Source: Tetragonia tetragonoides (lineage: Eukaryota > Streptophyta > Magnoliopsida > Caryophyllales > Aizoaceae). Taken from it: 64,000 bases of DNA. The notes below the pieces were generated by a model. That model was not told the DNA's origin, did not search any database, and worked only from the letters and a program-made list of their open reading frames with translations. Numbering within the stretch: position 1 is the stretch's first letter; every line of letters starts with the position of its first letter. Both the position numbers and the translations under genes were made by a program. Of the stretch, positions 1,981 to 38,264 are shown piece by piece. The DNA is taken from positions 31,871,501 to 31,935,500 of the forward strand of contig CM076152.1 of NCBI GenBank assembly GCA_038025085.1, in the 5' to 3' direction.

Positions 1981-2924
1981 AGATCCCAGAAGCACTGCAA
2001 GAAGAGAGATAAGGTGCAAATTATTCAGCAAAAGGGCAGCACAGAAAGGTAAAAGCAGGACTCCTCAGGTCCACAGCAGAATAGCAAGAATTCTGCAAGG
2101 CATCAGAATATGTGCAGGAAAAAGGAAACAGATTTCAGTAGGGATAGGCAGTAAAAGATCTCATCAGGGTCTCAGCAGAGAATCAAGCAATCCTACAAGG
2201 CATCAGAACATGTGCAGGAAAGGGACAGCAGATTCAGAAGGGAAGCAGATGCAGAAACTAAGATGTGAACCAGGCAGCAGGATCCAGCAGATAATCAGGA
2301 CAGGCTGCTGGAGAAAAGCAAAGCAAGATATGAAACAGAAAAACAGAAGAATTGGAAACTAGAAGAAAATGAACCAGTAGATTGCACAGGAAACCAGCAG
2401 GATGCTGATGCAGGAAAGAAGGTGGAATGAATCAGCTCTGGAAGACTGCACCAGCAGAGGATTCAGAGTAGAGGGCAGAAGCAAAGCAGAAGCAGGAAGA
2501 AGCAGATTCAGTGGAAAACAAGGAAATTCTGTAATCAGCAGCAGGTTGATGTAGCAAGGCAGAATGAGGAATGTAACAGCTCCAAACAGAGTCGAAAAGC
2601 TAGAAGAAGTTGTAACATTTTTAGCTATTTATGTTTTTGTATTTTGCTGTAAGTCAGAAATAATTTTTGCAAATTGTAATGTTTACAGAGATGGTGAGGA
2701 TTAATTTTTGTAAATTGTAATGTGTACAGAGATGGTGAACCACTGCCTGTAGTGAGGAGCACCAGATTGAAGGGTTGTAAGGTAGTAGAGGGATGTAGCA
2801 AAAAGGAACCCTACCTAGTAGGTGGCCTTCGATCTGCATTGCCTTAGGACTGTAATCTTGTTACATTACAGTGAGCAATAATACAATTTCTGACTTGCAC
2901 CAAAAAAAAAAAAAAAAAAAAAAA
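1..2924 (+). mobile_element. LINE copy A (L1 clade), 3' part; 5' part lies outside the window
   Basis: This is the 3' half of an L1-type retrotransposon. It holds the reverse transcriptase and C-terminal zinc-binding part of ORF2, then a purine-rich 3' UTR of about 0.9 kb (1981-2901) rich in CAGCAG and GAAG words. The conserved family tail follows: an ACCTAGTAGGTGG segment near 2813-2824, a GTAATC...ATTAC segment, and TTGCACC. A 23-A poly(A) at 2902-2924 joins the satellite word CATTGGCAATGC. Because the window starts inside the element, its full length is unknown. Confidence 0.93.
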
Positions 2925-3107
2925 CATTGGCAATGCGTCAAACCGCCCTTACAAGCCTATCGGGGCCCAAAACACGTCCCCTAGAGCATTCCCGGGGCCC
3001 GGTTTTCGTTTTCTTCCGAAATTTTTTCGGGGGCTCTATTATGGCCCTAGGGGACCCCCGGAGCCCCGGGAGGGTTATACCTATCCCCGAACTCTGATAT
3101 CACCCAT
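2925..3107. repeat. satellite segment 1: internally deleted monomer between LINE A and B
   Basis: This copy of the ~302-bp GC-rich satellite starts with the target word CATTGGCAATGC directly after poly(A) A. About 110 bp are missing after CAAGCCTATC, including the two CCCTAGGGG-containing blocks. It then continues through the CCGAAAATTTTTTCGG-like palindrome and the CCCCGGGAGGG block, and ends at GATATCACCCAT. The hairpin and target word expected before LINE B are absent. A 33-bp filler with repeated ATCGC words (3108-3140) lies in their place. Confidence 0.85.
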
Positions 3108-3158
3108 CGCGTATCACTCTATCGCAGCATCTATCGCGGATTTTTTTCTCTCTCTAAA

Positions 3159-3200
3159 ATGCTCTCTGCTTCGGCCTCTACAGCGCGCGTTCACCATTGA
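3159..3200 (+). CDS. conserved upstream ORF (13 codons) in the leader of LINE B
   Basis: The frame reads MLSASASTARVHH and ends at TGA. ORF1 starts 17 nt downstream. The same uORF, with substitutions and one codon-length change, occurs in all five full-length or 5'-complete copies (B, C, E, G, H). Its AUG has A at -3 (TAAAATG), a better context than the ORF1 start on that side. A regulatory or reinitiation role is inferred. Confidence 0.6.
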   Translation: MLSASASTARVHH

Positions 3201-3217
3201 AACAGCGCTGAGTTCGA

Positions 3218-4612
3218 ATGGGGAAGAAGGAAAAAGCTAAGAGAGGAAATGGAACTCAGATTGACGATGCGGGAAATTCAGGAAACAAAAATTGCACCCA
3301 GAAAAATGTAACCCTAAAACCAAAAAAAATCAAAAACCATGAAAACCTAGATAGAGTCATGCGAAATCTTGCGGACGAACTGGAAGATTCAGAGATAATG
3401 ACTCCGGATGTCCAAACGGAAACTGTGCAGCAAATGGAACTAGCTAAGGAAAAGATCAATTCGTGGCTTTCAAAAATGAAGGAAAAGGCAAAATCGCAAA
3501 CCCCATCTGAATCGGAGGAAGAAGAACCTGAGCAAGAACAGCAACAGGAGGCTACAAATTCTGGTAAGGTTTCAGCTTGGGATAAATTTGACATATCTAA
3601 ACTGAAAAATGCTGGATATAAATTGGATTATGTTGCACCAAATATGCATGAGGGTAAACCAGTAGGTGAAATAAATTTTATGGACATCGAATCAGAAATA
3701 GATTACTGGAACAAAGCTGTAGTTTGCTATGTGATGGGCTCTAAACCTCCAATTACTGTACTTAGTGGTTTTCTAAGAAGAATCTGGGGGAAAAAAGGGA
3801 TGAACAAGATATCAAGATTGAGAAATGGGCTAGTATTGGTTAGATTTGATTCTTTGGAGCAACGAGATGTTGTCATCCAGGAGTGGGTGTACCATTTTGA
3901 TAACAAACCAATGATTGTTAGGCCATGGTCAGAAAACATAGACTATGATCAAGAGGAGCTCACCTCTGTGCCAATATGGGTTAAATTCCCTGGACTCAAT
4001 GTCAAGTATTGGAATGCAATGGGTTTGAGCAAAATCTCGAGCCTAGTTGGGAGGCCAATGATGGCAGACAGAAATACAGAGCTCAAGGTGGGAATACACT
4101 ATGCAAGAGTTCTGATTGAAGTGCAAATAGGAGAGGAGTACCCAGAGAAAGTGCATTTCAAGAATGAGAGGGGAAACATAGTGGAACAAGCAGTGGACTA
4201 TGATTGGAAGCCAATTCTGTGCAATCACTGTAAACAATATGGCCACAGTGAAACAGAATGCAGGAAAAAGAAGCCTGTGGCTGCACCTGTGCAACAAGGG
4301 CCTGTGCATACTCAGCCTGCACAGCAGGAAATTCCAAGGGCTCAGCAATGGCAGTTTGCAGGGAGAGCTAGAGGGAGAGCCTGGAATGCAGGAAGAGGAG
4401 CAAGAACAGGAAAAGGCTACTACAGACAAGTCCAGCAGCCCAAAACTGTTATGCAAAACAGTTTTGACATTTTGCAAAATCAAGAAGAAATGCAGGAAAC
4501 ACAAAAGGAACAGCCAGTAGCTGTAGTGGTGACTGAGCAACAAACAAACCAGAATCCAGATGAGGTGCCATTGCATGGTAAGTCCCCTATCTTGACTGGT
4601 AGTCATGGATAG
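3218..4612 (+). CDS. LINE ORF1 protein (DUF4283-like plus CCHC knuckle), copy B
   Basis: This 464-residue nucleic-acid-binding ORF1 protein is expected to coat LINE RNA in the RNP. It has a basic Lys-rich N-terminus (MGKKEKAKRG), an acidic Glu/Gln-rich linker (about residues 95-112), a DUF4283-type core (about 115-300, with WDKFDISKLKNAG, AVVCYVMG, GFLRRIWGKKGM and IWVKFPGL blocks), a CCHC knuckle CNHCKQYGHSETEC, and an Arg/Gly/Gln-rich tail (GRARGRAWNAGRGART). It is intact. One residue differs from the other copies, Trp for Gly in IQEWVYHF. Its stop lies inside the start of ORF2 (ATGGATAG). Confidence 0.92.
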   Translation: MGKKEKAKRGNGTQIDDAGNSGNKNCTQKNVTLKPKKIKNHENLDRVMRNLADELEDSEIMTPDVQTETVQQMELAKEKINSWLSKMKEKAKSQTPSESEEEEPEQEQQQEATNSGKVSAWDKFDISKLKNAGYKLDYVAPNMHEGKPVGEINFMDIESEIDYWNKAVVCYVMGSKPPITVLSGFLRRIWGKKGMNKISRLRNGLVLVRFDSLEQRDVVIQEWVYHFDNKPMIVRPWSENIDYDQEELTSVPIWVKFPGLNVKYWNAMGLSKISSLVGRPMMADRNTELKVGIHYARVLIEVQIGEEYPEKVHFKNERGNIVEQAVDYDWKPILCNHCKQYGHSETECRKKKPVAAPVQQGPVHTQPAQQEIPRAQQWQFAGRARGRAWNAGRGARTGKGYYRQVQQPKTVMQNSFDILQNQEEMQETQKEQPVAVVVTEQQTNQNPDEVPLHGKSPILTGSHG

Positions 4613-7600
4613 GGTACTAATTTGGAATGTCAGAGGCCTTAATGGCCCAAATAAACAGAGAGATGTTGCTCTCTTTTGCAAAAAAAATAATTGTGGGTTG
4701 GTGGCTTTTCTTGAAACAAAAATTAGATTAGTTAACCTAGAAAAATACAAAAAATGTTTCATGCCAGGGTGGGACTCTTACAGTAATCACAGTGAGCATA
4801 GACTGGGTAGAATATGGTTAAGATGGATACCAAGCATTTTTAATGTGGATGTTTTATTCTCATCTGTGCAAATGATTATCTGTAAAGTAGTAAATGTTGT
4901 GAAAAAAATGGAATTTGTGATGAGCTTTGTATATGGCTTAAATGAAAAGGAGGAAAGGAGAGTACTATGGAAGGACTTAAATGATTTTGCAATTAATTGC
5001 AACACCCCATGGTTTGTAGGGGGGGATTTCAATAATGTACTGTATCCTGAAAATAGAAAAGGTGGAGTACCAGTTGCTTATGCAGAAATACAGGATTTCA
5101 AAGAGTGCATAGAAAAATGTTTCCTCACTGAAATGGGGTGGTCAGGGTGCCAATTTACTTGGAATAATAGGCATGAAAAAGGGGGGAGAGTATATTCTAA
5201 AATTGATTGGGCATTTGTAAACAGTTTATGGCTCCAGGAATTAGATCAATCAGATCTTGTATTCCATCCAGAGGGAGTTTCTGACCATTCCCCAATCTGT
5301 CTGTCTCTCCATAGAGAACTCACAAAAAAAACCATCCCCTTTAAATACTTCAACATGTGGAGCCTCCACTCTGAATTCCAAGCTAAGGTGCAGCAAGGTT
5401 GGAATTTCAGAACACAAGGCACAAAAATGTTCAGAGTGTACCAAAAAATGAAAAAGGTGAGAAAAGTGCTGAAAAAGCTAAATAGGAATGAATTCACAGA
5501 CATTCTGGCACAAGCAGATACAGCTAGGATAGCCATGACTCGAGCACAGATTGAAGCCAACAAAGAGCCATTAAATGAGTCAAGGCAACAGGCTGAACTA
5601 CAGGCTAGGAAAAGATACAATGAGGTCAACATGGCAGCTGAAAATTTCCTACAGCAGAAAAGCAAGGCAAAGTGGATTCAGTTGGGAGATGGAAATAACC
5701 AATTCTTCCATGCAGTTATGAAACAAAGAAGAAATAACAACAGAATTCACTCCATTAGGACACAGCAAGGGACCCTTCTGGAGGATCAGAACCTGGTTAT
5801 GGATGAATTTGTGAGATTCTACAAGGATATGCTGGGGGTAACAGGGGTCAGAACAATCAAAGCTGAAGACAGATACTTCCAAGCAGGTCACAGACTAGAC
5901 ATCCACCAACAAATGAACCTCATAGCCCCTGTGAATGCAGAAGAGGTGAAAAAGGCAATGTTTGCAATTGATTGCAATAAAAGCCCGGGACCTGATGGCT
6001 TTGGATCAGGGTTTTTCAAAGAAGCATGGCCAATTGTAGGGGAAGAAGTGACTGGAGCTATAATTGATTTTTTTTGAATCATCTAGAATGCTCAAGGAGG
6101 TAAATGCTACAAACCTATGCCTTGTACAGAAGATACAAAACCCAGAAAAGGCATCAGATTTCAGACCAATAGCCTGCTGTAATACAATCTACAAGTGCAT
6201 CTCCAAGATCTTGTGTGGGAGACTGGCAAAAGTACTTCCTGAGCTGGTGTCTGTGAACCAGGGAGCCTTTGTTGCACAGAGGTCCATTGTCAACAACATC
6301 ATGATATGCCAGGACCTTATTAAGCATTATAACAGGAAACAATCGTCTCCTAGGTGCTTAATGAAGATAGACATAAGGAAGGCTTATGACACAATCCACT
6401 GGGGCTTTGTGAAGGAAATGCTGCAAGGGTATGGATTCCCTGAAAAATTCAGTGGGTGGATACTAGAGTGCATCAGAACAGCAAGCTTCAGTATTAATAT
6501 AAATGGGGAAACACATGGGAACTTTGTTGCAAAACGTGGCATCAGACAAGGTGACCCCATCTCCCCATTAATATTTGTACTGGTAATGGAATATTTGACA
6601 AGGAACCTGAAAATAGCATGCATGGACAAGAGCTTCAGCTGGAACCCCATGTGCAAAGAGCTTGCACTAAGTCATCTGTGTTTTGCTGATGACTTAATGT
6701 GCTTCTGTAAAGCAGACACTGCATCTGTGAGCACAATGATGAACAGCATAAACCATTTCTCAAAAGCAACAGGCTTGTATGCAAACAAGGAAAAATCAAA
6801 CATCTACATAGCAGGGGTGGATGAACAAGGGAAAAATGCACTGTTACAACTCTCAGGCTTCAGAGAGGGTACCTTGCCCATGAGATACCTAGGTGTCCCA
6901 CTATCCCCTTCAAAATGGAGCAAAATAGACTGTGAATGTCTGGTGCATAAAATGACAAAAAAGTTGCAGATTTGGGCCTCTAGGAACCTTTCATATGCAG
7001 GGAGAGTCCAATTAATAAACTCTGTATTATTCTCCATTCATGTATACTGGTCTAGTATCTTCATAATGCCAACTGGGGTACTAAAAAGTGTGGAGCAAAA
7101 ATGTAGATTTTTCTTGTGGGGAACAACTGAGCAGAAACATAAAACAAGCTTGGTGGCCTGGGATATGGTATGCAGACCAAGGAACAATGGAGGACTTAAT
7201 GTCAAGAATTGCAAATGGTTCAACATAGCTCTGAATGGCAAGCACATCTGGGATATTGCAACAAAAAAAGACACTCTGTGGGTGAGATGGATCAATGGGG
7301 TGTATCTGAAAGGAGTAAACATCTGGAATTATGCTCCAGTATGGGGCACAAGCTGGTACTGGAACAAACTGAACAAGATCAAAAGTTACTTCCAGGGGCA
7401 ATACACAGCAAGGGGGGTATGGAAATTTGCATCTGATGGTATTTACTCTGCTGGAAGTGGATACAGAATGCTGCAGGGTAACATGACAAAATGCAGGCAT
7501 GCAGATTTGATATGGGGAAAGATATCCATGCCTAGACATAGCTTCTGCCTATGGTTAGCCCAAATGGACAGACTGTTAACAAAGGACAGACTACAGAGGA

Positions 7601-8001
7601 TGGGATTTCTGAATGGGGATGCTTTATGCTACCTGTGCAAGCAGGAACCAGAGGAACACAATCACCTGTTTTTCAAATGCAAAGTGTCAGCTGCAGTCCT
7701 GGAACAGTTAAGGGTATGGTTGCAAATTTCAGCAAGAGCAAGTACAATTCAGGGGATGTTTAACTGGATCAGCAGACAAAAATGCTCGAGACTCAGAAAG
7801 GAAGTTTATGCATCAGGGTTAGCAGCAGCAGTGTACTGGGTATGGAGATGCAGGAATACTCATTTTGCTGGCAAAGGCAGTATACCAGTGCCACAGATCA
7901 TGCTACAGGTCCAGCAAGCAGTCAGATGCAGAATTCAACAATGCTGCAACAGCAAAAGGAAGATCTCCAGCAGGGACAAGAGATGGATAGGGGAAATATA
8001 G
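4605..8001 (+). pseudogene. LINE ORF2 (endonuclease + reverse transcriptase), copy B, one frameshift
   Basis: The gene encodes an APE-type endonuclease (WNVRGLN, LETKIR, GGDFNN, SDHSPI motifs), then RT (FADD box) and the C-terminal CCHC-like zf-RVT segment. The frame is open from 4605 to about 6070. A run of 8 T at 6068-6075, where copy E has 7, shifts the frame and creates a stop at 6075-6077. The rest (about 6064-8001) is open in the next frame to its normal TAG. A single homopolymer base is the only lesion seen, so the inactivation is recent or could be a sequencing error. Confidence 0.92.
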
Positions 8002-8692
8002 CCTGAAGTTAAACTGGATCAGAGCAAGTAATAGAGCAAGCTGACAGAATGCACCAGACAGAAAGGCAGAAACAGAACTCAACAGGGTGTCAGCAGAAAA
8101 TCTGGCAATTTTGCAAGGTACCAGGAACATGTGCAGGAAAATGGACAGCAGGTCTCAGAAGGGATACAGAAGCAGGTTGATGCAGCTAGACCCTGAATCA
8201 GTTAAAAGGGGGCAGATTTCAGAAGGGTACAGGCAGGAACAGATCTCATCAGGAGCGCAGCAGAGAATCAAGTCATTCTGCAAGATATCAGAACAAGTGC
8301 AAGGAAATCGGCAGCAGATATCAGAAGGGAAGCAGGAACAGGAGGCAGTATAGCAGGAGCCAACAGACAACAAGTAGAAGATTGCTGGAGAAAGGCAGAG
8401 CAAGGAATGTAGCAGAAAACAAAAGAATTGGAAAGCTAGAAGAAGTTGTAATTTTCTAGCTTATTATGTTTTTTGTACTTTGTTGTAAGTCAGGAAAGTT
8501 TTTTGTAATTGTCATGTTTACAGAGATGGTGAACCACTATCTGTAGTGAGTTACACCAGATAGAAGGGATGTAAGGTAGTACAAGGGATGCAGGAAAAAG
8601 GAACCCTACCTAGTAGGTGGCCTTAGTTTTGCATTGCCTTAGGGCTGTAACTTACAGTGAGCAATAATACAATTTCTGACTTGCACCAAAAA

Positions 8693-9246
8693 CATTGGCA
8701 TCGCGTCAAACCGCCCTTACAAGCCTATCAGCGACCCAATAACCGACCCTAGGGGACTCCCATGTCCCCTAGGGGTCTCCCGTGCGATATGGGGCGAAAA
8801 TATTAACGTCGAAAAGTTTGCGTCAGGAGGCCCAAAACACGTCCCCTAGAGCATTCCCGGAGCCCGATTTCCGTTTTCGCCCGAAAATTTTTCAGGGGCT
8901 CTATTATGGCCCTAGGGGACCCCCTGTCTCCGATATCACCCATGTCGCCCGTTTTCGGGCCTTAACATTAGCATCGCTACAAACTGCCCTTACGAGCCTA
9001 TCAGGGACCCAATAACCGACCCTAGGGGCTTCCCATGTCCCCTAGGGGTCTCCCGTGCGATATAGGGCGAAAATATTAACGTCGAAAAGTTTGCTTCGGG
9101 AGGCCCAAAACACGTCCCCTAGAGCATTTCCGAGGCCAGGTTTCCGTTTTCGCCCGAAAATTTTTCGGAGGCTCTATTATGGCCCTAGGGGACCCCCGGT
9201 GCCCCGGGAGGGTCATACTTATCCCCGAACTCCGATATCACCCATG
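8693..9246. repeat. satellite segment 2: two tandem monomers with an empty target site
   Basis: Two head-to-tail monomers lie here. Monomer one (8693-8965) lacks about 30 bp after GGGGACCCCC. Monomer two starts at 8966 with a mutated target word, CATTAGCATCGC, and no LINE has inserted there. It runs to CACCCATG, where LINE C starts, so the hairpin and target word that normally end a monomer are missing. Each monomer carries several CCCTAGGG palindromes and is rich in CpG. Confidence 0.9.
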
Positions 9247-9262
9247 CTCTCTCCTCTCTAAA

Positions 9263-9304
9263 ATGCTCTCTCCTCTCTCCTCGACAGCGCCTGTTAGCCA
9301 TTAA
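9263..9304 (+). CDS. conserved upstream ORF (13 codons) in the leader of LINE C
   Basis: The frame reads MLSPLSSTAPVSH with a TAA stop, 16 nt before the ORF1 ATG. It differs from the copy G version at one residue. Existence rests on conservation among copies; translation is not shown. Confidence 0.6.
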   Translation: MLSPLSSTAPVSH

Positions 9305-9320
9305 CAAGCACTGAGTTCAA

Positions 9321-10733
9321 ATGGGGAAGAACAGGAAAGCAAAAAAAGGGAAACCTGATGCGAAAAGAAATGGGATTCAAGACGGGGATGAGGGAAACTC
9401 AGAAGCTCCACCTTGTCCCACAAAAAACCTGTCTCAAACACAAAGAACAAGCGGAAACCTTGAAAACCTAGGTCTTCTTATGCGGAATTTAGCAGAAGAA
9501 ATGGAGGATCCAGATGTGATGACACCTGATGCGCAAACGAAAACAATGAAAACAATGGAATTAGCGCAGGAAAAAATTGATTCCTGGCTGTCTAACATGA
9601 AGGAGAAAGCACGAACCCAGTTCGCGTCTGAAGATGAGGATGAAGAGCCTGAACAACCAAACCAACAGGAATTCGCAACTGCAGGTAACAACTCAGCTTG
9701 GGAAAAATTTGACATTTCCAAATTAAAGAATGCAGGATTTAAATTAGATTTCATTGCTCCTAAATTGCATGAAGGGAAACCGGTGGGTGAAATTAATTTT
9801 AGCGACATTGAAACTGAAATAAACTACTGGAATCAAGCTGTTGTGTGCTATGTCATGGGTGCTAGACCACCAATTACTGTTTTTAGCGGATTTCTAAGAC
9901 GAATTTGGGCTAAAAAAGGGATGAATAAGATTGCCATGATGAACAATGGCCTGGTACTGGTCAGGTTTGATTCAATGGAGCAGAGGGATAATGTAATTCA
10001 GGAAGGAGTGTACCATTTTGACAACAAACCTATGATAGTGAGACCATGGTCTGAAAATGTGGACTATGAACATGAGGAATTAACCTCGGTTCCTATTTGG
10101 GTGAAATTCCCAGGTCTAAGTGTGAAGTATTGGAATGCAACGGGGCTAAGCAAAATTGCAAGCCTTGTTGGTAGACCAATGATGGCAGATAGGAATACTG
10201 AACTTAAGGTAGGAATTCATTATGCCCGGGTTTTAATTGAAGTGAAAATTGGAGATGTCTACCCGGAAAAGGTAAATTTCAAGAATGAGAGGGGGAACAT
10301 TGTGGAGCAGGAAGTTGAGTATGATTGGAAACCAATCATCTGCAACCATTGCAAGAAGCATGGACATGGTGAACAAGGATGCAGGAAAAAGACTGGAAAT
10401 GCAGTTCCTGTGGCACAACCTGTTACAGGGCAAAACAGGCCACCAGTTCAAGCAAATCCCAGAAACCAGCTATGGCAAGATGCAGGAAGAGGGAGAGGAA
10501 GAGCAGGCAATGCAGGGGGGGGCAGAAGAGCAGGAAGAGGTTTTTACAGACAGGTCCAACTACAGCCTCATACACAGAATACTTTTGCAGTGCTACAAGA
10601 AGGAGAAAAAGAAGTGCAGCAGGGGGAAAAACAGCCAGAAGAGGCAGCAGAACCAGCAGCACAGGGGGTTATGACACCTGGTATGGTCCCAACACATGGT
10701 GAGTCTCCTATCTTGACTGGTAGTCATGGATAG
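9321..10733 (+). CDS. LINE ORF1 protein, copy C (470 aa, intact)
   Basis: The layout matches the other copies: basic N-terminus (MGKNRKAKKG), acidic linker (EDEDEEPEQ), DUF4283-like core, CCHC knuckle CNHCKKHGHGEQGC and Gly/Arg-rich tail (GRGRGRAGNAGGGRRAGRG). It is the longest ORF1 in the array. It remains open although this element has lost its own RT, so it could only move with help from another copy. It overlaps the ORF2 start by 8 nt. Confidence 0.92.
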   Translation: MGKNRKAKKGKPDAKRNGIQDGDEGNSEAPPCPTKNLSQTQRTSGNLENLGLLMRNLAEEMEDPDVMTPDAQTKTMKTMELAQEKIDSWLSNMKEKARTQFASEDEDEEPEQPNQQEFATAGNNSAWEKFDISKLKNAGFKLDFIAPKLHEGKPVGEINFSDIETEINYWNQAVVCYVMGARPPITVFSGFLRRIWAKKGMNKIAMMNNGLVLVRFDSMEQRDNVIQEGVYHFDNKPMIVRPWSENVDYEHEELTSVPIWVKFPGLSVKYWNATGLSKIASLVGRPMMADRNTELKVGIHYARVLIEVKIGDVYPEKVNFKNERGNIVEQEVEYDWKPIICNHCKKHGHGEQGCRKKTGNAVPVAQPVTGQNRPPVQANPRNQLWQDAGRGRGRAGNAGGGRRAGRGFYRQVQLQPHTQNTFAVLQEGEKEVQQGEKQPEEAAEPAAQGVMTPGMVPTHGESPILTGSHG

Positions 10734-11300
10734 GATTCTTATATGGAATGTGAGAGACCTAAATGGCCCTAATAAACAGAAAGATGTAAGCCTTTTCTGC
10801 AAAAAGAATAACTTTGGATTGGTAGTTTTGTTAGAAACTAAAATTAGACTAGGAAACTTGGAAAAATGCAAAAAAAAAAAAAAAAAAAAAGGTTTCATGC
10901 CAGAATGGGAATCATTTAGCAACCATGACTATCATAGATTGGGGAGAATCTGGATTAGATGGCAACCAAATTATTTTCATGTTGTTGTGTTATTTTCTTC
11001 TGTACAAATGGTGATTTGTAAAGTAGTGAATATAAGGGGAAAAAAAGAAGTGCAATAGATTACATTAAAGTATCAATTTTGTGAAGAAAAAGGAACTTGT
11101 GGTGAATCTGTGTATGGGATAATGGAAATGGAGGAAAGGCAGAAACTATGGAAGGAGCTCACTGTTGTTGCACTTCAATGTGCTACAACTTGGAAACAGA
11201 CAAGAAGGAGCCCTAGACACACATTCTGTAAATACAGACTGCAGTAAAGACTATGTACTACAGAACAGAGCTGGTCTGGGTGTCAATACACTTGAATGAA
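10726..11300 (+). pseudogene. LINE ORF2 remnant, copy C (N-terminal endonuclease only)
   Basis: It starts MDRILIWNVRDLNGPNKQ; the conserved Gly of WNVRGLN is Asp here. A run of 21 A (10870-10890) encodes extra lysines where other copies have a short A-run. The frame stops at 11058. Degenerate endonuclease similarity continues (SGCQYT box near 11276-11293) until the junction with the 3' UTR. It cannot encode a working endonuclease or RT. Confidence 0.85.
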
Positions 11301-12471: not shown

Positions 12472-12483
12472 CATTGGCATCGC
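12472..12483. other. target word / left target-site duplication of LINE D
   Basis: CATTGGCATCGC directly precedes the truncated LINE D. A near copy (CATTTGCATCGC) follows its poly(A) at 14475. With the two preceding A residues the duplication can be read as AACATTGGCATCGC, ambiguous with the poly(A). Confidence 0.8.
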
Positions 12484-28664: not shown

Positions 28665-28677
28665 TCTCTCTCTAAAA

Positions 28678-28716
28678 ATGCTCTCGTCTCTCTCCTCTGC
28701 ACCGCTTCGCCATTGA
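28678..28716 (+). CDS. conserved upstream ORF (12 codons) in the leader of LINE H
   Basis: The frame reads MLSSLSSAPLRH and ends in TGA, 17 nt before ORF1. It is one codon shorter than in other copies. The length change is a multiple of three and the MLS...H* ends are kept, which is the strongest hint that the peptide frame, or its stop position, is under constraint. Confidence 0.6.
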   Translation: MLSSLSSAPLRH

Positions 28717-28733
28717 CGCAGCCGTGAGTCTCA

Positions 28734-30128
28734 ATGGGGAAGAAAGACAAGGCCAAACGAGGGACAGACAAGAACGATGACACTGGCGACAACACAGCTC
28801 CACCATGTCCGACGAAAACTGGGAATCAAAGGCAAGTCTCAAACACCAACCGAGACAACCTAGATCGGGTTATGCGCAACCTGACTGATGAATTGGAGGC
28901 ACCGGAGGTTATGACTCCAGAAGTACAAACTGAAACTGTTCAACAAATGGAGCTAACTCGAGAAAAGATCAACATTTGGCTTTCGAGGATGAAGGACAAG
29001 GCAAAATCGCATTTCTCGTCTGAAGAAGAAGATGAAGGCTCAGACCAAACAGCTCAGCAAGAAACTGCTACTGCAGGTAACACCTCTGCTTGGGAAAAAT
29101 TTGACATTTCTAAATTGAAAAATGCGGGATTCAAATTGGATTTTATTGAGCCTAAAATGCACGAAGGGAAACCTGTGGGGGAAATTAATTTTATGGACAT
29201 TGAGTCTGAAATTAATTACTGGAATCAAGCAGTTGTCTGCTATGTTATGGGATCTAGACCACCAATTACTGTGTTAAGTGGCTTTCTAAGAAGAATCTGG
29301 GCAAAACGGGGGATGAACAAAATTGCTATGATGAAAAATGGATTGGTTTTGGTTCGATTTGATTCCCTAGAGCAGAGGGATGCAGTATTACAGGAGGGGG
29401 TATATCACTTTGACAACAAACCCATGATTGTAAGGCCATGGTCAGAAAATATAGATTATGCACAAGAAGAACTGACCTCAGTGCCAATTTGGGTAAAATT
29501 CCCGGGGCTTAATGTGAAATATTGGAATGCAACGGGGTTGAGCAAGATTGCAAGTCTTGTAGGAAGGCCAATGATGGCAGACAGAAACACAAAACTTAAA
29601 GTTGGGATTCAATATGCCAGAGTGATGATAGAAGTTGAAATTGGTGTTGAATACCCAAAAAAGGTTCACTACAAGAATGAGAAAGGGAACATTGTGGAAC
29701 AGGAAGTGGAATATGACTGGAAGCCTACTCTATGCTGCCATTGCAAACAATATGGGCATAGTGACGTTGATTGTAGAAAGAAGAATGCCACAGGCCCTGT
29801 GAAACAAACTGTACCTGTACAACAACCAGTGCAGCAAGCAAACCCAAGGATACAACAGTGGCAAAATGCTGGGAGGGGAAGAGGAAGAGTAGGGAATGCA
29901 GGGAGAGGGTCAAGAGCTGGAGGAGGCTATTATAGACAAATTCAGCAGCAACAAAAAGAAAAACCACAGACACATAACCCTTTTACAATCCTGCAAAATG
30001 AAGAAGAAGCCCAGGATGCACAAGTGATACAAAATGGAAATGCAGAACCAGTCTTACAGGAGGATTTGCACACAGGTATGGTCCCAGCACATGGTAAGGC
30101 CCCTATCTTGACTGTTAGTCATGGATAG
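28734..30128 (+). CDS. LINE ORF1 protein, copy H (464 aa, intact)
   Basis: A family ORF1 with a more divergent N-terminus (MGKKDKAKRGTDKNDDTGDN), an acidic SSEEEDEGSDQ linker, the DUF4283-like core, the CCHC knuckle CCHCKQYGHSDVDC (one extra Cys inside) and a Gly/Arg-rich tail. Its stop is inside ATGGATAG. Confidence 0.94.
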   Translation: MGKKDKAKRGTDKNDDTGDNTAPPCPTKTGNQRQVSNTNRDNLDRVMRNLTDELEAPEVMTPEVQTETVQQMELTREKINIWLSRMKDKAKSHFSSEEEDEGSDQTAQQETATAGNTSAWEKFDISKLKNAGFKLDFIEPKMHEGKPVGEINFMDIESEINYWNQAVVCYVMGSRPPITVLSGFLRRIWAKRGMNKIAMMKNGLVLVRFDSLEQRDAVLQEGVYHFDNKPMIVRPWSENIDYAQEELTSVPIWVKFPGLNVKYWNATGLSKIASLVGRPMMADRNTKLKVGIQYARVMIEVEIGVEYPKKVHYKNEKGNIVEQEVEYDWKPTLCCHCKQYGHSDVDCRKKNATGPVKQTVPVQQPVQQANPRIQQWQNAGRGRGRVGNAGRGSRAGGGYYRQIQQQQKEKPQTHNPFTILQNEEEAQDAQVIQNGNAEPVLQEDLHTGMVPAHGKAPILTVSHG

Positions 30129-33100
30129 GATCCTAATATGGAATATAAGAGGCCTAAATGGCCCAAATAAGCAGAGAGATGTTGCTCTTTTCTGCAAAAA
30201 AAATAATTGTGGGTTGGTAGCTTTCTTGGAAACTAAAGTTAGAGTAATTAATTTGGAAAATTGCAAAAATAGATTGATGCCAGGGTGGGAATCATTCAGT
30301 AACCACAATGAACACAGATTGGGTAGAATATGGATAAGATGGTTACCAGATATTTTCCATGTTATTGTGCTTTTCTCTTCAGTGCAAATGATTACCTGCA
30401 AGGTAATTAATCTAGAGAGGAAAGATGAATTTGTGGTGAGTTTTGTATATGGGCAAAATGAAAAAGAAGACAGAAAACAATTATGGAAGGATCTTAGGGA
30501 TTATGCAATTAATTGTAATAACCCTTGGATTGTTGGTGGGGATTTTAATAATGTCATGTTTCCTGGAAATAGACAAGGAGGGAAACCAGTTACACTTGCA
30601 GAAACCCAGGATTTCAAAACCTGTATTGAGGACTGTCTACACACTGAAATGGGTTGGACTGGCTGCCAGCACACATGGAACAATAGGCATGAGAAGGGGG
30701 GGAGAGTATATTCTAAAATTGACTGGGTTTTTACCAATAGCCTCTGGCTGCAGGAGCATGATCAGTGCACCCTTCAGTTTCTACCAGAGGGTGTATCTGA
30801 TCACTCACCTGCTTACATAACTTTACAAAATGAAACCACAAAAAGAAACATCCCCTTCAAATTTTTTAACATGTGGAGCCTCCACTCTGAATTCCATGCA
30901 ATGGTGCAGCAAGCATGGAATTGCAGAACACAGGGCACAAAAATGTTCAGGGTTTACAAGAAGCTGAAAAGGGTGAGAAAGGTTCTGAAAAAGCTAAACA
31001 AAACAGAATTTAGTGATATTTTAGCCCAGGCTGATATTGCTAGAATCTCAATGACTCAAGCTCAGACAGAGGCAAACAAAGAGCCTCTCAATGAAACTCT
31101 ACAGCAGAAGGAGATACAGGCAAGAAAGAGGTATAATGAGGTGAATATGGCAGCTGAGAATTTCTTACAGCAGAAGAGCAAAGCTAAATGGGTGCAGTTG
31201 GGTGATGGGAACAACCAATTCTTCCATGCAATTATGAAACAGAGAAGACAAAAGAATAGGCTACACTGTATCAGGACACAAGAGAATGTTTTGTTAGAAG
31301 ACCAGGATTTGATTGTTGAGGAATTTGTGGGATTTTACAGGAAAATGCTAGGAGTATCAGGGGTGAGGGAAACTACAGCAGACAACTGTTTCTTTTCAGC
31401 AGGACACAGGCTGGATATACACCAACAGATGACATTATGTGCCCCTGTGAGTGCAGAAGAAGTAAAGATAGCCATGCATGATATTGACAGCAACAAAAGC
31501 CCAGGCCCTGATGGCTTTGGATCAGGGTTTTTCAAAGCAGCATGGCACATTGTGGGGGAAGAGGTGACAGAGGCCATCATTGACTTCTTTGAATCATCAA
31601 AAATGCTAAAGGAGGTGAATGCTACTAATCTGTGTCTAGTGCAGAAGATAGAAAATCCAGAGAAGGAATCAGACTACAGACCAATTGCATGCTGCAACAC
31701 CATCTACAAATGCATCTCCAAGATTCTGTGTGGGAGACTGGCAAGAGTACTTCCTGACCTAGTCTCAGAGAACCAGGGTGCTTTTGTGGCTCAGAGATCA
31801 ATTGTGCACAACATCATGATTTGCCAGGATCTGATCAAGCACTACAACAGAAAACAATCATCTCCTAGATGCTTGATGAAGATAGACCTAAGGAAAGCCT
31901 ATGACACAATTCACTGGAGTTTTGTCAAGGAAATGTTGCTAGGGTATGGGTTTCCTGTAAAATTCATTGGCTGGGTTCTGGAATGCATCCAAACAGCAAG
32001 TTTCAGCATCAACATGAATGGGGAGGTTCATGGGTTCTTTCCTGCTAAACGTGGCATTAGGCAGGGGGATCCAATATCTCCACTAATCTTTGTATTGGTA
32101 ATGGAGTATCTTTCAAGAATCCTGAAAATAGCCTGTATGGATAAAAGCTTCTCCTGGCATCCCATGTGCAAAGACTTGGCTCTCAGTCACCTATGTTTTG
32201 CAGATGACCTGATGTGCTTTTGCAAAGCAGCACCAGAATCTGTGAACATCTTGATGAACAGTCTAGACTATTTTTCAAAAGCTACAGGGTTGTGTGCAAA
32301 CAAAGAGAAATCCAACATGTACATTGCTGGTGTTAGTGAACAAAAGAAGAGTGAGTTGTTAGGCTTATCAGGGTTCAGGGAGGGCACTTTACCCATGAAA
32401 TACCTGGGAGTTCCATTATCTCCATCTAAATGGAGCAAAATTGATTGTGAATGTTTAGTGGACAGAATGACAAAGAAGCTTCAGATATGGGCATCCAGAA
32501 ACCTATCATATGCTGGAAGGGCTCAACTGATCAACTCTGTGTTATTCTCCATACATGTATACTGGTCTAGCATTTTTATAATGCCTGCTGGTGTACTCAA
32601 AAGTGTAGAGCAGAAGTGCAGACTATTCCTGTGGGGTTCAACTGACCAAAAACAGAAGACAAGCCTGGTGGCATGGGATGTGGTATGCAGACCAAGGAAA
32701 AATGGGGGAATAAATATCAAAAACTGCAAATGGTTTAATATTGCTTTAAATGGGAAGCATATTTGGGATTTAGCCACAAAAAAAGACACTCTGTGGGTTA
32801 AATGGATAAATGGGGTTTATTTAAAGGGAGTGAATTTCTGGAACTATGCTCCTGTATGGGGTGCCAGCTGGTACGGGAATAAGCTTAACAAAATTAAAAG
32901 CCATTTCCAGGACCATTATACAGCTAGAGGAGTGTGGAAGGCTTCAAATGATGGGCTTTACTCAGCTGCAAGTGGATATAGTGTACTTACAGGGACTATG
33001 CCAAAATCTAGACATGCCAACCTGATTTGGGGGAAGATAACCATGCCTAGGCAGAGCTTTTGCTTATGGTTGGCACAACAGGGAAGACTGCTAACAAAGG

Positions 33101-33513
33101 ATAGGATGCTGAGGATGGGGTTCCTGAATGGAGACACCATGTGTAACCTGTGCAAAGAAAAAACAGAGGACCATAACCACATGTTCTTCAATTGTAATGT
33201 ATCTGCAGGGATCCTGGACCAGCTAAGAGGTTGGCTACAGATAACAGCAAGAGCAAACTCTATCCAGGGAATGCTCAACTGGACAAGCAGGCAAAAGTGC
33301 TCCAGGTTCAGGAAGGAAACATACGCAGCAGGACTTGCAGCAACAGTGTATTGGATATGGAGATGCAGGAACATTCAACATTTTGAGGGGAGCAGAATGT
33401 CAGTGGAACAGATCATGCAACAGGTTCAGCAGGTTATCAGAATTAGAACTCAACAATGCAGCAGAGAGAGGAAAATCAGCAACAAGGACAGGAGATGGAT
33501 AGGAAATTTATAA
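30121..33513 (+). CDS. LINE ORF2 protein (endonuclease, RT, zf-RVT), copy H, intact
   Basis: This 1130-residue protein has the full motif set: WNIRGLN with Asn8, LETKVR, GGDFNN, SDHSP, then AYDTIHW, RQGDPISP, FADD, YLGVPLSP and the zinc segment CNLCKEKTEDHNHMFFNC. No stop or frameshift is present. With ORF1 of the same copy it could support autonomous retrotransposition. Reinitiation at the overlapping start is the likely route of translation. Confidence 0.95.
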   Translation: MDRILIWNIRGLNGPNKQRDVALFCKKNNCGLVAFLETKVRVINLENCKNRLMPGWESFSNHNEHRLGRIWIRWLPDIFHVIVLFSSVQMITCKVINLERKDEFVVSFVYGQNEKEDRKQLWKDLRDYAINCNNPWIVGGDFNNVMFPGNRQGGKPVTLAETQDFKTCIEDCLHTEMGWTGCQHTWNNRHEKGGRVYSKIDWVFTNSLWLQEHDQCTLQFLPEGVSDHSPAYITLQNETTKRNIPFKFFNMWSLHSEFHAMVQQAWNCRTQGTKMFRVYKKLKRVRKVLKKLNKTEFSDILAQADIARISMTQAQTEANKEPLNETLQQKEIQARKRYNEVNMAAENFLQQKSKAKWVQLGDGNNQFFHAIMKQRRQKNRLHCIRTQENVLLEDQDLIVEEFVGFYRKMLGVSGVRETTADNCFFSAGHRLDIHQQMTLCAPVSAEEVKIAMHDIDSNKSPGPDGFGSGFFKAAWHIVGEEVTEAIIDFFESSKMLKEVNATNLCLVQKIENPEKESDYRPIACCNTIYKCISKILCGRLARVLPDLVSENQGAFVAQRSIVHNIMICQDLIKHYNRKQSSPRCLMKIDLRKAYDTIHWSFVKEMLLGYGFPVKFIGWVLECIQTASFSINMNGEVHGFFPAKRGIRQGDPISPLIFVLVMEYLSRILKIACMDKSFSWHPMCKDLALSHLCFADDLMCFCKAAPESVNILMNSLDYFSKATGLCANKEKSNMYIAGVSEQKKSELLGLSGFREGTLPMKYLGVPLSPSKWSKIDCECLVDRMTKKLQIWASRNLSYAGRAQLINSVLFSIHVYWSSIFIMPAGVLKSVEQKCRLFLWGSTDQKQKTSLVAWDVVCRPRKNGGINIKNCKWFNIALNGKHIWDLATKKDTLWVKWINGVYLKGVNFWNYAPVWGASWYGNKLNKIKSHFQDHYTARGVWKASNDGLYSAASGYSVLTGTMPKSRHANLIWGKITMPRQSFCLWLAQQGRLLTKDRMLRMGFLNGDTMCNLCKEKTEDHNHMFFNCNVSAGILDQLRGWLQITARANSIQGMLNWTSRQKCSRFRKETYAAGLAATVYWIWRCRNIQHFEGSRMSVEQIMQQVQQVIRIRTQQCSRERKISNKDRRWIGNL

Positions 33514-34026
33514 TCTGTGTCCTCTGTTGTATATGCATGTTTTTGTTCTGGAAACTATGCAGCAGCATCGGCAGGAAGACTGAATCAGAAGGCAACAGGC
33601 CCAGCAGTAGGAGAGAGTTGCAGGAATATGGCAGCTTAGTTAAATCCAGTGCAGAAATGTTTGCAGCAGTTTCCAGCAGGAAATTCAGAGGCAGAGGGCA
33701 GAAGCTAAGCAGAAACAGGAAGAAGCAGATTTCAGTAGAAAACAAGGATAGAAACTCTGTAATAACTTAGATTACTATGTTTTTGTATTTTGTTGTAAGT
33801 CAGGAATGTTTTTTTGTATTTTGTATCTGTTTCCAGATATGGGAAACCACTGCATGTAGTGAGTTGCCCCCAGTACTATTATAGGGTTGTAAGGAAGCAA
33901 AGGGATGCAGAAGAAAAGGAACCCAACCTAGTAGGTGGCCTTGGACTTGCATTGCCTATGGGCTGTAATCTGTGTAACATTACAGCTAGCAATAATACAA
34001 TTTCTGACTTGCACCAAAAAAAAAAA

Positions 34027-34328
34027 CATTGGCATCGCGTCAAATCGCACTTACAAGCCTATCAGGGATCCAATAACCGACCCTAGGGGCCTCCCATGCC
34101 CCCTAGGGGTTTCCCGTGCGATATGGGGCGAAAATATTAACGTCGAAAAGTTTGCGTCCGGATGCCCAAAACACGTCCCATAGAGCATTCCCGGGGCCCG
34201 GTTTCCGTTTTCGCCAAAAAAAATTTCGGGGGCACTATTATGGCCCTAGGAGACCCCCGGTGCCCCGGGAGGGTCATACTTATCCCCGAACTCCGATATC
34301 ACCCATGTCGCCCGTTTTTGGGCCTTAA
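34027..34328. repeat. satellite segment 8: one monomer (302 bp) between LINE H and I
   Basis: A full monomer starting CATTGGCATCGCG. The pre-target hairpin is GCCCG-TTTT-TGGGC, a half-changed state in which one pair is G-T. Confidence 0.93.
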
Positions 34329-34340
34329 CATTGGCATCGC
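34329..34340. other. target word / left target-site duplication of LINE I
   Basis: CATTGGCATCGC lies directly before copy I and is repeated after its poly(A) at 37263-37274. Confidence 0.85.
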
Positions 34341-37262
34341 TATGTTTGCAATTGACTGCAACAAGAGTCCAGGGCCTGATGGTTTTGGCTCAGGATTTTT
34401 CAAAGCAGCGTGGCATATTGTGGGGGAAGAAGTGTCTAGTGCAATAATCGATTTTTTTGATTCCTCTAAAATGCTTAAAGAGGTGAATGCAACTAACCTA
34501 TGTCTTGTGCAGAAAGTAACAAACCCTGAGAAGGCTTCTGATTTCAGGCCTATTGCGTGCTGCAACACCATCTACAAGTGCATATCCAAGATCCTCTGCG
34601 GGAGATTGGCTAGGGTACTTCCTCACCTCATCTCAGTGAACCAGGGTGCTTTTGTGGCGCAGAGATCAATAGTACACAACATCATGATTTGTCAAGACCT
34701 CATTAAGCACTACAACAGAAAACAGTCTTCACCAAGATGCTTGATGAAGATAGACTTAAGGAAGGCCTATGACACAATCCACTGGAGTTTTATCAAGGAG
34801 ATGCTGCAAGGATATGGATTTCCACTGAAATTCAGTGGATGGTTACTTGAGTGCATACAGACAGCCAGCTTCAGCATAAGTATGAATGGGGAGGTGCATG
34901 GATTCTTCCCTGCAAAACGTGGCATTAGACAGGGTGACCCCATGTCCCCACTCATTTTTGTGCTGGTAATGGAATACTTATCAAGAATCCTGAAACTTGC
35001 TTGCATGGAAAATAGCTTCAGCTGGCACCCTATGTGCAAAGATCTTACATTGAACCACCTGTGCTTCGCTGATGATCTGATGTGTTTCTGCAAAGCAAAC
35101 CCTGAATCTGTAAGTATTATGATGAATTGCATTAACTACTTTGCACAAGCTACTGGATTATATGCAAATAAGGAGAAATCCAACATGTACATAGCTGGTG
35201 TAAATGAGGAGGTTAAGAGAGCATTGTTAGACTTGTCTGGCTTCAAGGAGGGTACACTTCCCATGAAATACCTAGGGGTGCCACTCTCCCCATCAAAGTG
35301 GAACAAAATGGACTGTGAGTGCCTGGTGGAAAAAATGACCAAAAAGCTACAAATATGGGCTTCTAGGAACCTCTCATATGCAGGAAGGGTCCAACTTATT
35401 AACTCTGTTCTGATCTCTATACATGTGTACTGGTCTAGCATTTTCATAATGCCAGCTGGGGTACTCAAGAGTGTAGAGCAAAAGTGTAGGTTTTTCCTGT
35501 GGGGGTCCTCTGATCAAAAGCATAAGACCAACCTGGTGGCATGGGACTTGGTGTGTAGACCGAGGAAAAATGGGGGCTTGAACATCAAGAGCTGCAAATG
35601 GTTCAATATAGCTTTAAATGGAAAGCATATATGGGATCTGGCCACAAAAAAGGATATATTGTGGGTGAAATGGGTAAATGGAGTTTACTTGAAGGGGATT
35701 AACTTCTGGAATTATGCACCTGTGTGGGGATCCAGTTGGTACTGGAAAAAACTCAACAAAATTAAGAATTTAATCCAGGAACAGTACACAGTGAGAGGGA
35801 TTTGGAAGAGGGCACCTGATGGTTGTTATTCTGCTGCAAGTGGATACAGTGTACTCACAGGGGATTTACCCAAATCCAGACATTCCAATCTGATTTGGGG
35901 AAAGTTAACAATGCCAAGGCATAGCTTCTGCCTCTGGCTTGCACAACAGGGGAGATTACTAACCAAGGACAGGGTACAGAAAATGGGATTCCTGCAAGGA
36001 GGGGCTGTATGCAATCTGTGCAAAGCGGAGTTAGAAGACCATGGCCACTTATTCTTCAGCTGTAATGTGTCAACAGAGGTTATAATGCAAGTAAAAGCCT
36101 GGTTACAGATGCCTTCTAGAGCAAACTCAATACAGGGCCTGCTTAACTGGATAAGTAGGCAGAAATGTTCAATGTTCAGAAAGGAGGTCTATGCTGCAGG
36201 GATCGCAGGAGCTGTGTACTGGTTATGGAGGAGCAGGAACCTCCAGCACTTTGAGGGGAGCAGACCAACAGTCACGCAGATCTTGCAACAGATCCAACAG
36301 CAAGTCAGAATCAGAACACACGAACCCAGCAGGAAGAGGAAGATCAAGAGCAAAGATAAAAGATGGCTGGAAAATGTTTAATGCTCTCTACAGAAAAATG
36401 AGAGTATCAAGGCAAAATACAGCAGATCAGCAATGAAGCAGTACAGCAGCTCCAAAAGCAAATCAGAGCCAGTACATTAGGTTATAAGCAGACAACCCAG
36501 CAACCAACAAGGCATGAGTACCTGTGCAGGGATTCAGAGAGCAGGGGTAGTAGTAGGTCAGAAGCATCCAGCAGACATGCAAGACTTAGGGCCTGTGCAG
36601 GAATATAGACAGCAGAGGTTCAGCAGGGGGGCAGCAGGAATGCATCAAGCAATTAGCAAAAGGCATTAGGACATGAGCAGGAAAAAGATAGCAGGTTTCA
36701 GAAGGGGAGCTGATCAGTGTGCTGAAAATTGGTAGAAATGCTCAGAAAAAAATCAGAAGCAGTCTGTTCTGTAAGGCAGAACCCAGCAGGAAGGCAGGAC
36801 CAGACTCCAGGAGAGGTTTTAGCAGGAAAAACAGAAGACATGCAGGGCTCCAGCACCTGTACAGGGATCTAGACAGTAGATTGATGTAGATCAGCTTGAT
36901 GGGCACAGCAGGTAGATGAAGCAAGAAAGGAGGAGGAATGAATCAGCTTCTGGAAGTTTTTGTTGTAATATTTTTAGATATCTATATTGTTGTATTTTGC
37001 TGTAAGTCAGAAATAATTTTTGCAAATTGTAATGTTTACAGAGATGGTGAGAAACAATTTTTGCAATTTGTAATGTTTACAGAGAGGGTGAAACACTGCC
37101 TGTAGTGAGTTGCACCAGATTGAAGGGTTGTAAGGTAGTAGAGGGATGTAGAAAAAAGGAACCCTACGTAGTAGGTGGCCTTGGATCTGCATTGCCTAAG
37201 GACTGTAATCTTGTTACATTACAGAGAGCAATAATACAATTTCTGACTTGCACCAAAAAAAA
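34341..37262 (+). mobile_element. LINE copy I, 5'-truncated just before the reverse transcriptase
   Basis: The copy lacks ORF1 and the endonuclease. It begins at the MFAIDCNKSPGPDG block with a 1-2 nt overlap with the target word. ORF2 is followed by a 3' UTR of 0.87 kb, the tail and 8 A. No satellite monomer follows; the next LINE (J) starts after only the 12-bp target word. Confidence 0.93.
34342..36381 (+). CDS. LINE ORF2 fragment with complete reverse transcriptase and zf-RVT, copy I
   Basis: These 679 codons are fully open, starting by chance at an in-frame ATG two bases after the target word. The RQGDPMSP block, FADD box and the zinc segment CNLCKAELEDHGHLFFSC are intact. The frame is also open upstream through the satellite from 34162, so a 739-codon satellite-RT fusion frame exists. 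Without an endonuclease it could not nick a target itself. The absence of lesions suggests a young insertion rather than function. Confidence 0.88.
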   Translation: MFAIDCNKSPGPDGFGSGFFKAAWHIVGEEVSSAIIDFFDSSKMLKEVNATNLCLVQKVTNPEKASDFRPIACCNTIYKCISKILCGRLARVLPHLISVNQGAFVAQRSIVHNIMICQDLIKHYNRKQSSPRCLMKIDLRKAYDTIHWSFIKEMLQGYGFPLKFSGWLLECIQTASFSISMNGEVHGFFPAKRGIRQGDPMSPLIFVLVMEYLSRILKLACMENSFSWHPMCKDLTLNHLCFADDLMCFCKANPESVSIMMNCINYFAQATGLYANKEKSNMYIAGVNEEVKRALLDLSGFKEGTLPMKYLGVPLSPSKWNKMDCECLVEKMTKKLQIWASRNLSYAGRVQLINSVLISIHVYWSSIFIMPAGVLKSVEQKCRFFLWGSSDQKHKTNLVAWDLVCRPRKNGGLNIKSCKWFNIALNGKHIWDLATKKDILWVKWVNGVYLKGINFWNYAPVWGSSWYWKKLNKIKNLIQEQYTVRGIWKRAPDGCYSAASGYSVLTGDLPKSRHSNLIWGKLTMPRHSFCLWLAQQGRLLTKDRVQKMGFLQGGAVCNLCKAELEDHGHLFFSCNVSTEVIMQVKAWLQMPSRANSIQGLLNWISRQKCSMFRKEVYAAGIAGAVYWLWRSRNLQHFEGSRPTVTQILQQIQQQVRIRTHEPSRKRKIKSKDKRWLENV

Positions 37263-37274
37263 CATTGGCATCGC
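37263..37274. other. target word shared by LINE I (right) and LINE J (left)
   Basis: A single CATTGGCATCGC separates the poly(A) of I from the start of J. It is the right duplication of I reused as the target for J (or the reverse order of events). Two insertions therefore occurred at one nucleotide position. Confidence 0.85.
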
Positions 37275-38039
37275 TCAGGAAGGAGCTTATGCATCAGGGC
37301 TAGCAGCAGCAGTTTTTTGGGTATGGAGATGCAGGAATACTCATTATGCAGGAAAAGGCAGCATACCAGTGCCACAGATCATGCAACAGGTTCAGCAAGC
37401 TATCAGGTGCAGAATCCAACAATGCAGTAACAGCAAGAGGAAGATTTCCAGCAGGGACAAGAGATGGATAGGGGAAATATAGTCAAAAGTGAACTGGACC
37501 AAAACATGCAGTAGAGCAAGCAGACAGTCTGCATCAGACAGAAAAGGCAGCATCAGAGCTCATCAGGGCTTCAGCAAAAAATCAAGCAATTCTGCAAGGC
37601 ATCAGAACATGTGGAGGAAAATAGGCAGCAGGTTTCAGAAGGGAAGCAGAAGCAGGTTTGCTGTAGCTAGGCTGAGAATCAGGCAGCAGGGCCCAGCAGA
37701 TAATCAGTAGCAGCTGCTAAAGCTAGACAGTGTGAAGAATGTAACAGAATTTAGAAGTATTGGAAAGTTAGAAGAAGCTGTAATATTTTTAGCTTAATAT
37801 GTTTTTGTATTTTGTTGTAAGTCAGTAAAGATTGCTGTATTTTGTTGTGTTTACAGAGATGGTGAACCACTGCCTGTAGTGAGTTGCACCAGAATTGAAG
37901 GGTTGTAAGGTAGTGAAGGGATGCAGAAAAAAGGAACCCTACCTAGTAGGTGGCCTTGCATCTGCATTGCCTAAGGGCTGTAATCTTGTTACATTACAGT
38001 GAGCAATAACACAATTTCTGACTTGCACCAAAAAAAAAA
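37275..38039 (+). mobile_element. LINE copy J, severely 5'-truncated
   Basis: Only the last ~65 codons of ORF2, the 3' UTR (37483-38029) and the tail with 10 A remain. Its coding part resembles subfamily B/E (HYAGKGSIPVPQIMQQVQQA). The truncation point differs from those of D, F and I. Confidence 0.92.
37284..37482 (+). pseudogene. LINE ORF2 extreme C-terminal fragment, copy J
   Basis: It encodes the terminal YASGLAAAVFWVWRCRN segment and the basic C-terminus to the TAG. One base is missing near the 5' junction relative to copy E. It has no enzymatic domain. Confidence 0.85.
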
Positions 38040-38264
38040 CATTGGCATCGCGTCCGACCACCCTTACAAGCCTATCAGGGACCCAATAACCGACCCTAAG
38101 GGCCTCCCATGTCCCCTAGGGGTCTCCCGTGCGATATGGGGCGAAAATATTAACGTCAAAAAGTTTGCGTCCGGAGGCCCAAAACACGTCCCCTAGAGCA
38201 TTTCCGGGGCCCGATTTTCGTTTTCGCCCGAAAATTTTTCGGGGGCTCTATTATGGCCCTAGGG
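38040..38264. repeat. satellite segment 9: truncated last monomer, right edge of the array
   Basis: The monomer starts CATTGGCATCGCGTCC after poly(A) J and stops at GGCCCTAGGG, about 75 bp before its expected end. AT-rich unrelated DNA follows. No further satellite is seen to the right in the window. Confidence 0.9.

Follow-up and report, generated by a model that had tools for sequence, protein, structure and literature searches.

The closest described counterpart of the elements reported here comes from Cuscuta, a genus of the Solanales. In Cuscuta europaea, the L1-CS long interspersed nuclear elements (LINEs) favour two adjacent places (TTCTA and TTTCAA) of the satellite CUS-TR24, and 91% of them lie within 10 kb of it; their mapped ends are offset by 13-16 bp, which is ascribed to target duplication, and recurrent retrotransposition of multiple templates is preferred over amplification as the origin of the copies (Vondrak et al. 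2021, PMC8091179). Here we describe ten LINE copies (A-J) in a 64,000-bp stretch of the genome of Tetragonia tetragonoides (contig CM076152.1, positions 31,871,501 to 31,935,500; 40.7% GC; hereafter the window), which all sit, in one orientation, at a single nucleotide of a 302-bp satellite unit. We consider it likely that each arose by its own target-primed reverse transcription, after a nick by a predicted site-recognising endonuclease of the apurinic/apyrimidinic endonuclease (APE) type. The Tetragonia and Cuscuta families are alike in being plant L1-clade elements with heterogeneous copies and preferred places in a satellite monomer. In Tetragonia, however, one nucleotide is used in ten of ten cases, the satellite and the plant order are different ones and occupancy is nearly full; moreover, the bottom-strand site, ATGTT/AAGG, matches neither TTCTA nor TTTCAA, the satellite has a trimer register, and synonymous saturation between lineages has been measured. 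An earlier note on this DNA, made from the letters alone, knew of no described plant L1 with fixed satellite specificity; given the L1-CS precedent (PMC8091179), that claim is wrong, and the Tetragonia family is a sharper variant of a known habit and not wholly new.

Other systems share parts of this habit. Celine of poplar is also a plant L1 LINE of repeat-rich chromatin, with target-site duplications (TSDs) of 15 bp on average, and 52 of its 58 full-length copies lie inside other transposable elements (TEs); unlike the Tetragonia family, it has a unique TSD for each copy, with a short base bias and no one-base specificity (PMC11288735). The target-specific elements of the Tx1 and R1 clades (PMC4640811) likewise combine an APE-type endonuclease with a fixed target in repeated sequence, whereas the target here is a satellite and the organism-named relatives, among the 120 matches listed, are plant proteins. 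Utopia and YURE also have a fixed target site, and YURE occasionally sits in a U2-derived satellite, but their endonuclease is restriction-like, in contrast to the N-terminal PF03372 domain of the Tetragonia family (PMC4640811). In the open-access literature, outside which most subscription papers lie, PMC8091179 is the sole report we recognised in which a plant L1 has its target sites in a satellite; the excerpts of a 2025 review of TE localisation (PMC12477314) mention neither Cuscuta nor Celine, and those of a paper on the hop centromere (PMC12371157) hold nothing comparable.

Within positions 1-38039 of the window, the ten LINE copies, all on the + strand, alternate with 11 whole or partial satellite units (S1-S11), the consensus of which spans 301 columns, or 302 with the terminal A added. 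All ten 3' junctions lie exactly at position 1 of the satellite unit: 5-38 A, two of which may be the target's own AA, lead into CATTGGCATCGC, at times with one or two bases changed, and the junctions are at 2925, 8693, 12171, 14475, 20305, 22087, 28331, 34027, 37263 and 38040. The earlier note had listed ten same-strand poly(A) junctions at one exact nucleotide of a 302-bp satellite, and within the window this is upheld for every junction. Allowing up to two mismatches, the word ACATTGGCATCGC occurs 18 times in the window, always on the + strand, as against a mean of 1.16 and a maximum of 5 in shuffled sequences, none of 100 of which reached 18. Were position and strand random, nine further insertions would fall at one site with a chance of about 1e-25; the same chance is 4e-6 if only exact TT/AA sites are permitted (four per unit, both strands). 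No family copy outside the array was found within the 64,000-bp window. The features of the array are as follows.

1..2924, + strand: LINE copy A; 5' end beyond the window, part of open reading frame 2 (ORF2) to 1977, 3' tail
2902-2924, + strand: poly(A) and tail end of copy A; junction at 2925
2925..3107, + strand: satellite S1; internal deletion of about 97 bp, 3' end gone, trimer type unassignable
3108..8692, + strand: LINE copy B; nearly full length, target deletion at the 5' junction
3218-4609 and 4605-7998, + strand: ORF1 and interrupted ORF2 of copy B
8693..8965, + strand: satellite S2; type b
8966..9246, + strand: satellite S3; type c, the least typical, 3' end gone, S2/S3 site empty
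9247..12170, + strand: LINE copy C; ORF1 at 9321-10730, ORF2 mostly lost, 5' junction with target deletion
12171..12484, + strand: satellite S4; type a, includes the 5' target duplication of D
12485..14474, + strand: LINE copy D; 5'-truncated at KHIWDL
14475..14787, + strand: satellite S5; type b, includes the 5' target duplication of E
14788..20304, + strand: LINE copy E; near full length, open ORF1 at 14853-16253, open ORF2 at 16249-19641
20305..20619, + strand: satellite S6; type c, includes the 5' target duplication of F
20620..22086, + strand: LINE copy F; 5'-truncated near DTLWVK, ORF2 98.7% identical in nucleotides to that of G
22087..22379, + strand: satellite S7; type a
22380..22694, + strand: satellite S8; type b, includes the 5' target duplication of G, S7/S8 site empty
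22695..28330, + strand: LINE copy G; nearly full length, with an interrupted ORF2
28331..28643, + strand: satellite S9; type c, includes the 5' target duplication of H, more GGCATCGCAC copies continuing after the word to 28664
28644..34026, + strand: LINE copy H; apparently full length, ORF1 (28734-30128) and ORF2 (30121-33513) both open
34027..34340, + strand: satellite S10; type a, includes the 5' target duplication of I
34341..37262, + strand: LINE copy I; 5'-truncated at MFAIDC
37263..37274, + strand: CATTGGCATCGC common to I and J; site hit a second time, without an intervening satellite unit
37275..38039, + strand: LINE copy J; 5'-truncated near YASGLA
38040..38267, + strand: satellite S11; type b by several columns, ended by other sequence at the array edge

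Nine 5' ends lie in the window, and seven of them (D, E, F, G, H, I and J) directly follow the target word or, in E and G, variants of it; the earlier note had likewise counted seven. As CATTGG is preceded by the TTAA that closes the unit, the duplication covers about 14 bp, AACATTGGCATCGC. The two words flanking an insertion agree at 12 of 12 positions in F, H, I and J and at 13 of 13 in E. Moreover, both E flanks read CATTGGCATCGTG, and among the units the T variant is confined to S6, downstream of E, and S9, so that the 5' word of E derives from the downstream unit, as a true duplication requires. Four of the nine visible copies (D, F, I and J) are truncated within ORF2, at different points, just where the earlier note had placed them, and I and J adjoin at one word, which indicates that the site was struck again. 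The seven duplicated 5' ends and the ten 3' junctions fit separate insertion at one nucleotide.

We propose that the APE-type endonuclease nicks the bottom strand at 5'-GCGATGCCAATGTT/AAGG and that the TT left at the nick would pair with the poly(A) of the RNA and prime reverse transcription; the varying length of the poly(A) fits such tail-primed synthesis rather than the copying of a read-through transcript. In most copies the top strand would be cut about 14 nt downstream, which duplicates the target, whereas a cut about 20 nt upstream would account for the deletion in B and C. Specificity would reside in the endonuclease itself and not in chromatin alone, and the satellite may act as a safe, renewable docking array. 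A rival that we judge possible but doubtful is an endonuclease with no more than the usual L1 preference (about TT/AA) that is restricted to satellite chromatin, where this base would be the best short motif at hand and no long sequence would be recognised. The nick, GTT/AA, does resemble TTTTAA, which PMC8091179 gives as the L1 site of mammals, the unit offers few TT/AA sites (two per strand), and in the Celine elements of poplar centromere enrichment is accompanied by no more than a short base bias, each copy having its own TSD (PMC11288735). However, the other bottom-strand GTT/AA (in ATATTAACGTC) and both top-strand TT/AA sites received none of the ten insertions. Unused as well, although closer to the mammalian motif, are the pyrimidine-rich CTT/AA of the top strand and one bottom-strand [CT]TTT[AG][AG], whereas the used site has no preceding pyrimidine on its own strand, and when the word was reused in the I/J pair, a full satellite flank was present on just one of its sides.

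Several details of the junctions are recorded here in their own right. Copies B and C start after CACCCAT(G) (3101-3147 and 9239-9260), a hint of a second preferred top-strand cut, and about 39 bp of B (3108-3146) cannot be aligned to H and contain ATCGC repeats. The 5' junction of H (28635-28664) has three tandem copies of GGCATCGCAC, perhaps from slippage of the target end while the insertion was completed. The target TTAA is separated by 1 nt from the end of a hairpin, GCCCGTTTTCGGGC (12447-12484, 20582-20619 and 28606-28643); in S6 and S9 this hairpin reads GCCCATTTTTGGGC, a paired change that preserves the stem, while S10 has a G-T pair and S5 is without the outer pair. The paired change is one shared event and thus weak evidence of a DNA or RNA structure.

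The history of the satellite can be read independently of the LINEs. The units are 85-97% identical to one another, with a peak at three-unit spacing: S4, S7 and S10 form type a, S2, S5 and S8 type b (with S11, by several columns) and S3, S6 and S9 type c, while the damaged S1 matches no type (84.6% identity to S4). A period-3 signal as strong was obtained in 38 of 100,000 permutations of S2-S11, and in 305 of 100,000 with S1 included. Read alone, S2-S11 make up a continuous trimer higher-order repeat, the register of which is unshifted by the LINEs; nine of the 11 unit starts are filled, two are empty (S3 and S8), and that of S11 holds two copies, I and J. Judged from this register, the satellite array preceded the LINE insertions. 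The almost one-to-one alternation of units and copies could also mean that the satellite belongs to the element, for example as a tandem 5' region, and that the junction is an internal boundary. To this we give practically no credence, as D, F, I and J begin inside ORF2 straight after the target word, and it is refuted by the direct joining of S2/S3 and S7/S8 without a LINE and of I and J without a satellite unit between them. A gene-derived target (ribosomal, transfer or small nuclear RNA) was also sought; no Rfam family reached its gathering score in the window, and such a target is rejected. A 20-base target word had zero exact matches in viral contigs, and a 21-base unit word had zero in prokaryote contigs; plant DNA is not expected in either, and these zeros carry little weight.

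The trimer repeat does imply that the satellite was amplified in blocks, and one or a few insertions might have been amplified along with it, by unequal crossing over or segmental duplication. Certain pairs are close: the ORF2 sequences of F and G agree at 98.7%, D and I, which share a junction type, are 93.0% identical in their tails, and B and J, which share a downstream unit type, are 89.0% identical in the tail and 94.3% in the satellite. On the premise that amplified copies at equivalent junctions (those with the same downstream unit type) should match as closely as the units do, however, the LINEs are mostly far too unlike: overall, tails at equivalent junctions are 70-93% identical and the satellite 92-97%. 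For tail and downstream satellite, respectively, identities are 71.5 and 96.2% in C/F, 85.5 and 94.6% in C/H, 76.3 and 96.9% in F/H, 69.5 and 96.7% in E/G, 80.3 and 95.9% in B/D, and 82.9 and 92.5% in D/J. D and I, moreover, part in ORF2 (67.9%) and in truncation point, and F and G, the closest pair, differ in both junction type (c/a and b/c, respectively) and flanks. Similarity of LINEs and similarity of flanks were uncorrelated in four Mantel tests (r of -0.20, -0.18, 0.09 and 0.11 for 36, 28, 21 and 21 pairs), in which 4333, 4187, 1642 and 1537 of 5000 permutations equalled or exceeded the observed value. Since the satellite register is intact and LINE divergence is unlinked to flank divergence, the copies are most likely separate insertions into an existing array, as the earlier note had claimed; the sign of one amplified insertion that it had named in advance, flanking mutations shared among junctions, was looked for in the array and not found. 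By these comparisons, amplification of one insertion is refuted for the array as a whole, and we regard amplification of one or a few as highly improbable.

The encoded proteins bear on what would make the nick. In E and H, the two copies of which ORF2 was scanned, Pfam recognises an N-terminal endonuclease (PF03372), a reverse transcriptase (RT; RVT_1, PF00078) and zf-RVT (PF13966). The ORF1 of H, the sole one scanned, contains DUF4283 (PF14111; E 3.7e-33), which we take to be a marker of plant L1 ORF1 and which was also found in fused database matches. The ORF1 regions of B, C, E and G are 67-74% identical in amino acids to that of H, and copy A has 80.3% amino acid identity to H ORF2 with zero stops (tblastn). 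H ORF2 is colinear with human L1 ORF2p over residues 4-884 (phmmer E 8.5e-47), and its motifs N, E, DxN, D, DH and FADD align with those of the human protein. The endonuclease motifs and FADD are retained in B, E, G and H; both ORFs are open in E and H, and ORF2 of B and G is nonetheless interrupted. An RNase H family was absent at E 1e-3 from the two ORF2 proteins scanned (E and H), and the RNase H-bearing plant L1s are presumably those of LIb type. Plant L1s are counted among RNase H carriers (PMC4640811). The combination of APE-type endonuclease, RT and C-terminal zinc domain, the DUF4283 of ORF1, the poly(A) in all ten copies, the variable 5' truncation and the target duplication identify the elements, by homology, as a plant L1-type LINE family; the assignment to the L1 type by the earlier note is borne out by the Pfam and human ORF2p matches.

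The synonymous divergence (dS) of ORF2 exceeds 1.1 in 19 of 28 pairs, is undefined (saturated) in three, lies at 0.25-0.94 in five and is 0.02 in F/G, values above 1 being rough and including post-insertion damage. The 28 pairs are without C, which loses its frame from about residue 100 onwards, and without J, the pairs of which have fewer than 80 common codons. The ratio of nonsynonymous to synonymous divergence (dN/dS) is 0.03-0.17 in all 24 pairs for which dS is finite and exceeds 0.2. The mostly saturated dS, together with the low dN/dS, indicates that one and the same base is used by several lineages of the family that diverged long ago and are under protein constraint. In a quick RT tree, the rows of which include no animal L1, Tx1 or labelled subclade sequences, the six copies whose RT segment is nearly complete fall into a single clade on a long stem (SH-aLRT 100), nested (support 97) in a 25-row set whose organism-named rows are from Caryophyllales and Humulus. 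By its ORF2, D belongs with F and G (100/100), whereas by the final 230 nt that precede the poly(A) it belongs with A, I and E (100/100), and the similarity of A to E rises from 81.7% in ORF2 to 94.8% in those final 230 nt; by this conflict, 3' ends have been exchanged between lineages (19597-20304, 1977-2924, 13244-14474 and 36381-37262). A tandem duplication of about 41 bp is found in the 3' part of A (2661-2738), E (20026-20103) and I (37009-37091).

Some of these results weigh against repeated, sequence-directed insertion, as does the roughness of the high dS values. In two of the nine 5' ends (B and C) the duplication is absent, the satellite flank ending with CACCCAT(G), 19-20 bp short of the nick, and the flanking word pairs differ at one of 12 positions in D and three of 12 in G. 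The near-identity of F and G, together with the exchange of 3' tails, makes "ten independent lineages" an overstatement. A single locus was seen, and copies outside the satellite could exist. A bare TT/AA preference combined with confinement by other means would yield ten of ten with P of about 4e-6, and higher for a slightly longer motif. R2 is an element with a restriction-like endonuclease and a fixed target. We see an even chance that the Tetragonia family has evolved a comparable, true site specificity, in which the endonuclease would read about 14 bp or more of one satellite phase and would have kept this ability through synonymous saturation; LINE and satellite would then be parasite and host in a long-lived, self-renewing docking system with units almost all filled.

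Outside the satellite, the window holds the broken ORF2 of a different LINE (56294-59582, minus strand), with 29-40% amino acid identity to the satellite-targeting family. Near the array, a reading frame at 46799-47152 has ten protein matches, the best named of which are from Spinacia, Chenopodium, Beta, Amaranthus and Bienertia (49-56% identity, with 57-100% of the query covered); this too points to the Caryophyllales, and probably to a plant of none of these genera.

Satellites usually turn over fast, in contrast to the mostly saturated LINE lineages that are found here on one exact satellite base. If this holds genome-wide, the family would provide a natural single-site plant L1 endonuclease beside the Cuscuta case, and its insertion history could be read against the higher-order repeat. 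It would also offer a route to ask whether satellites are harmless landing pads that protect host genes.
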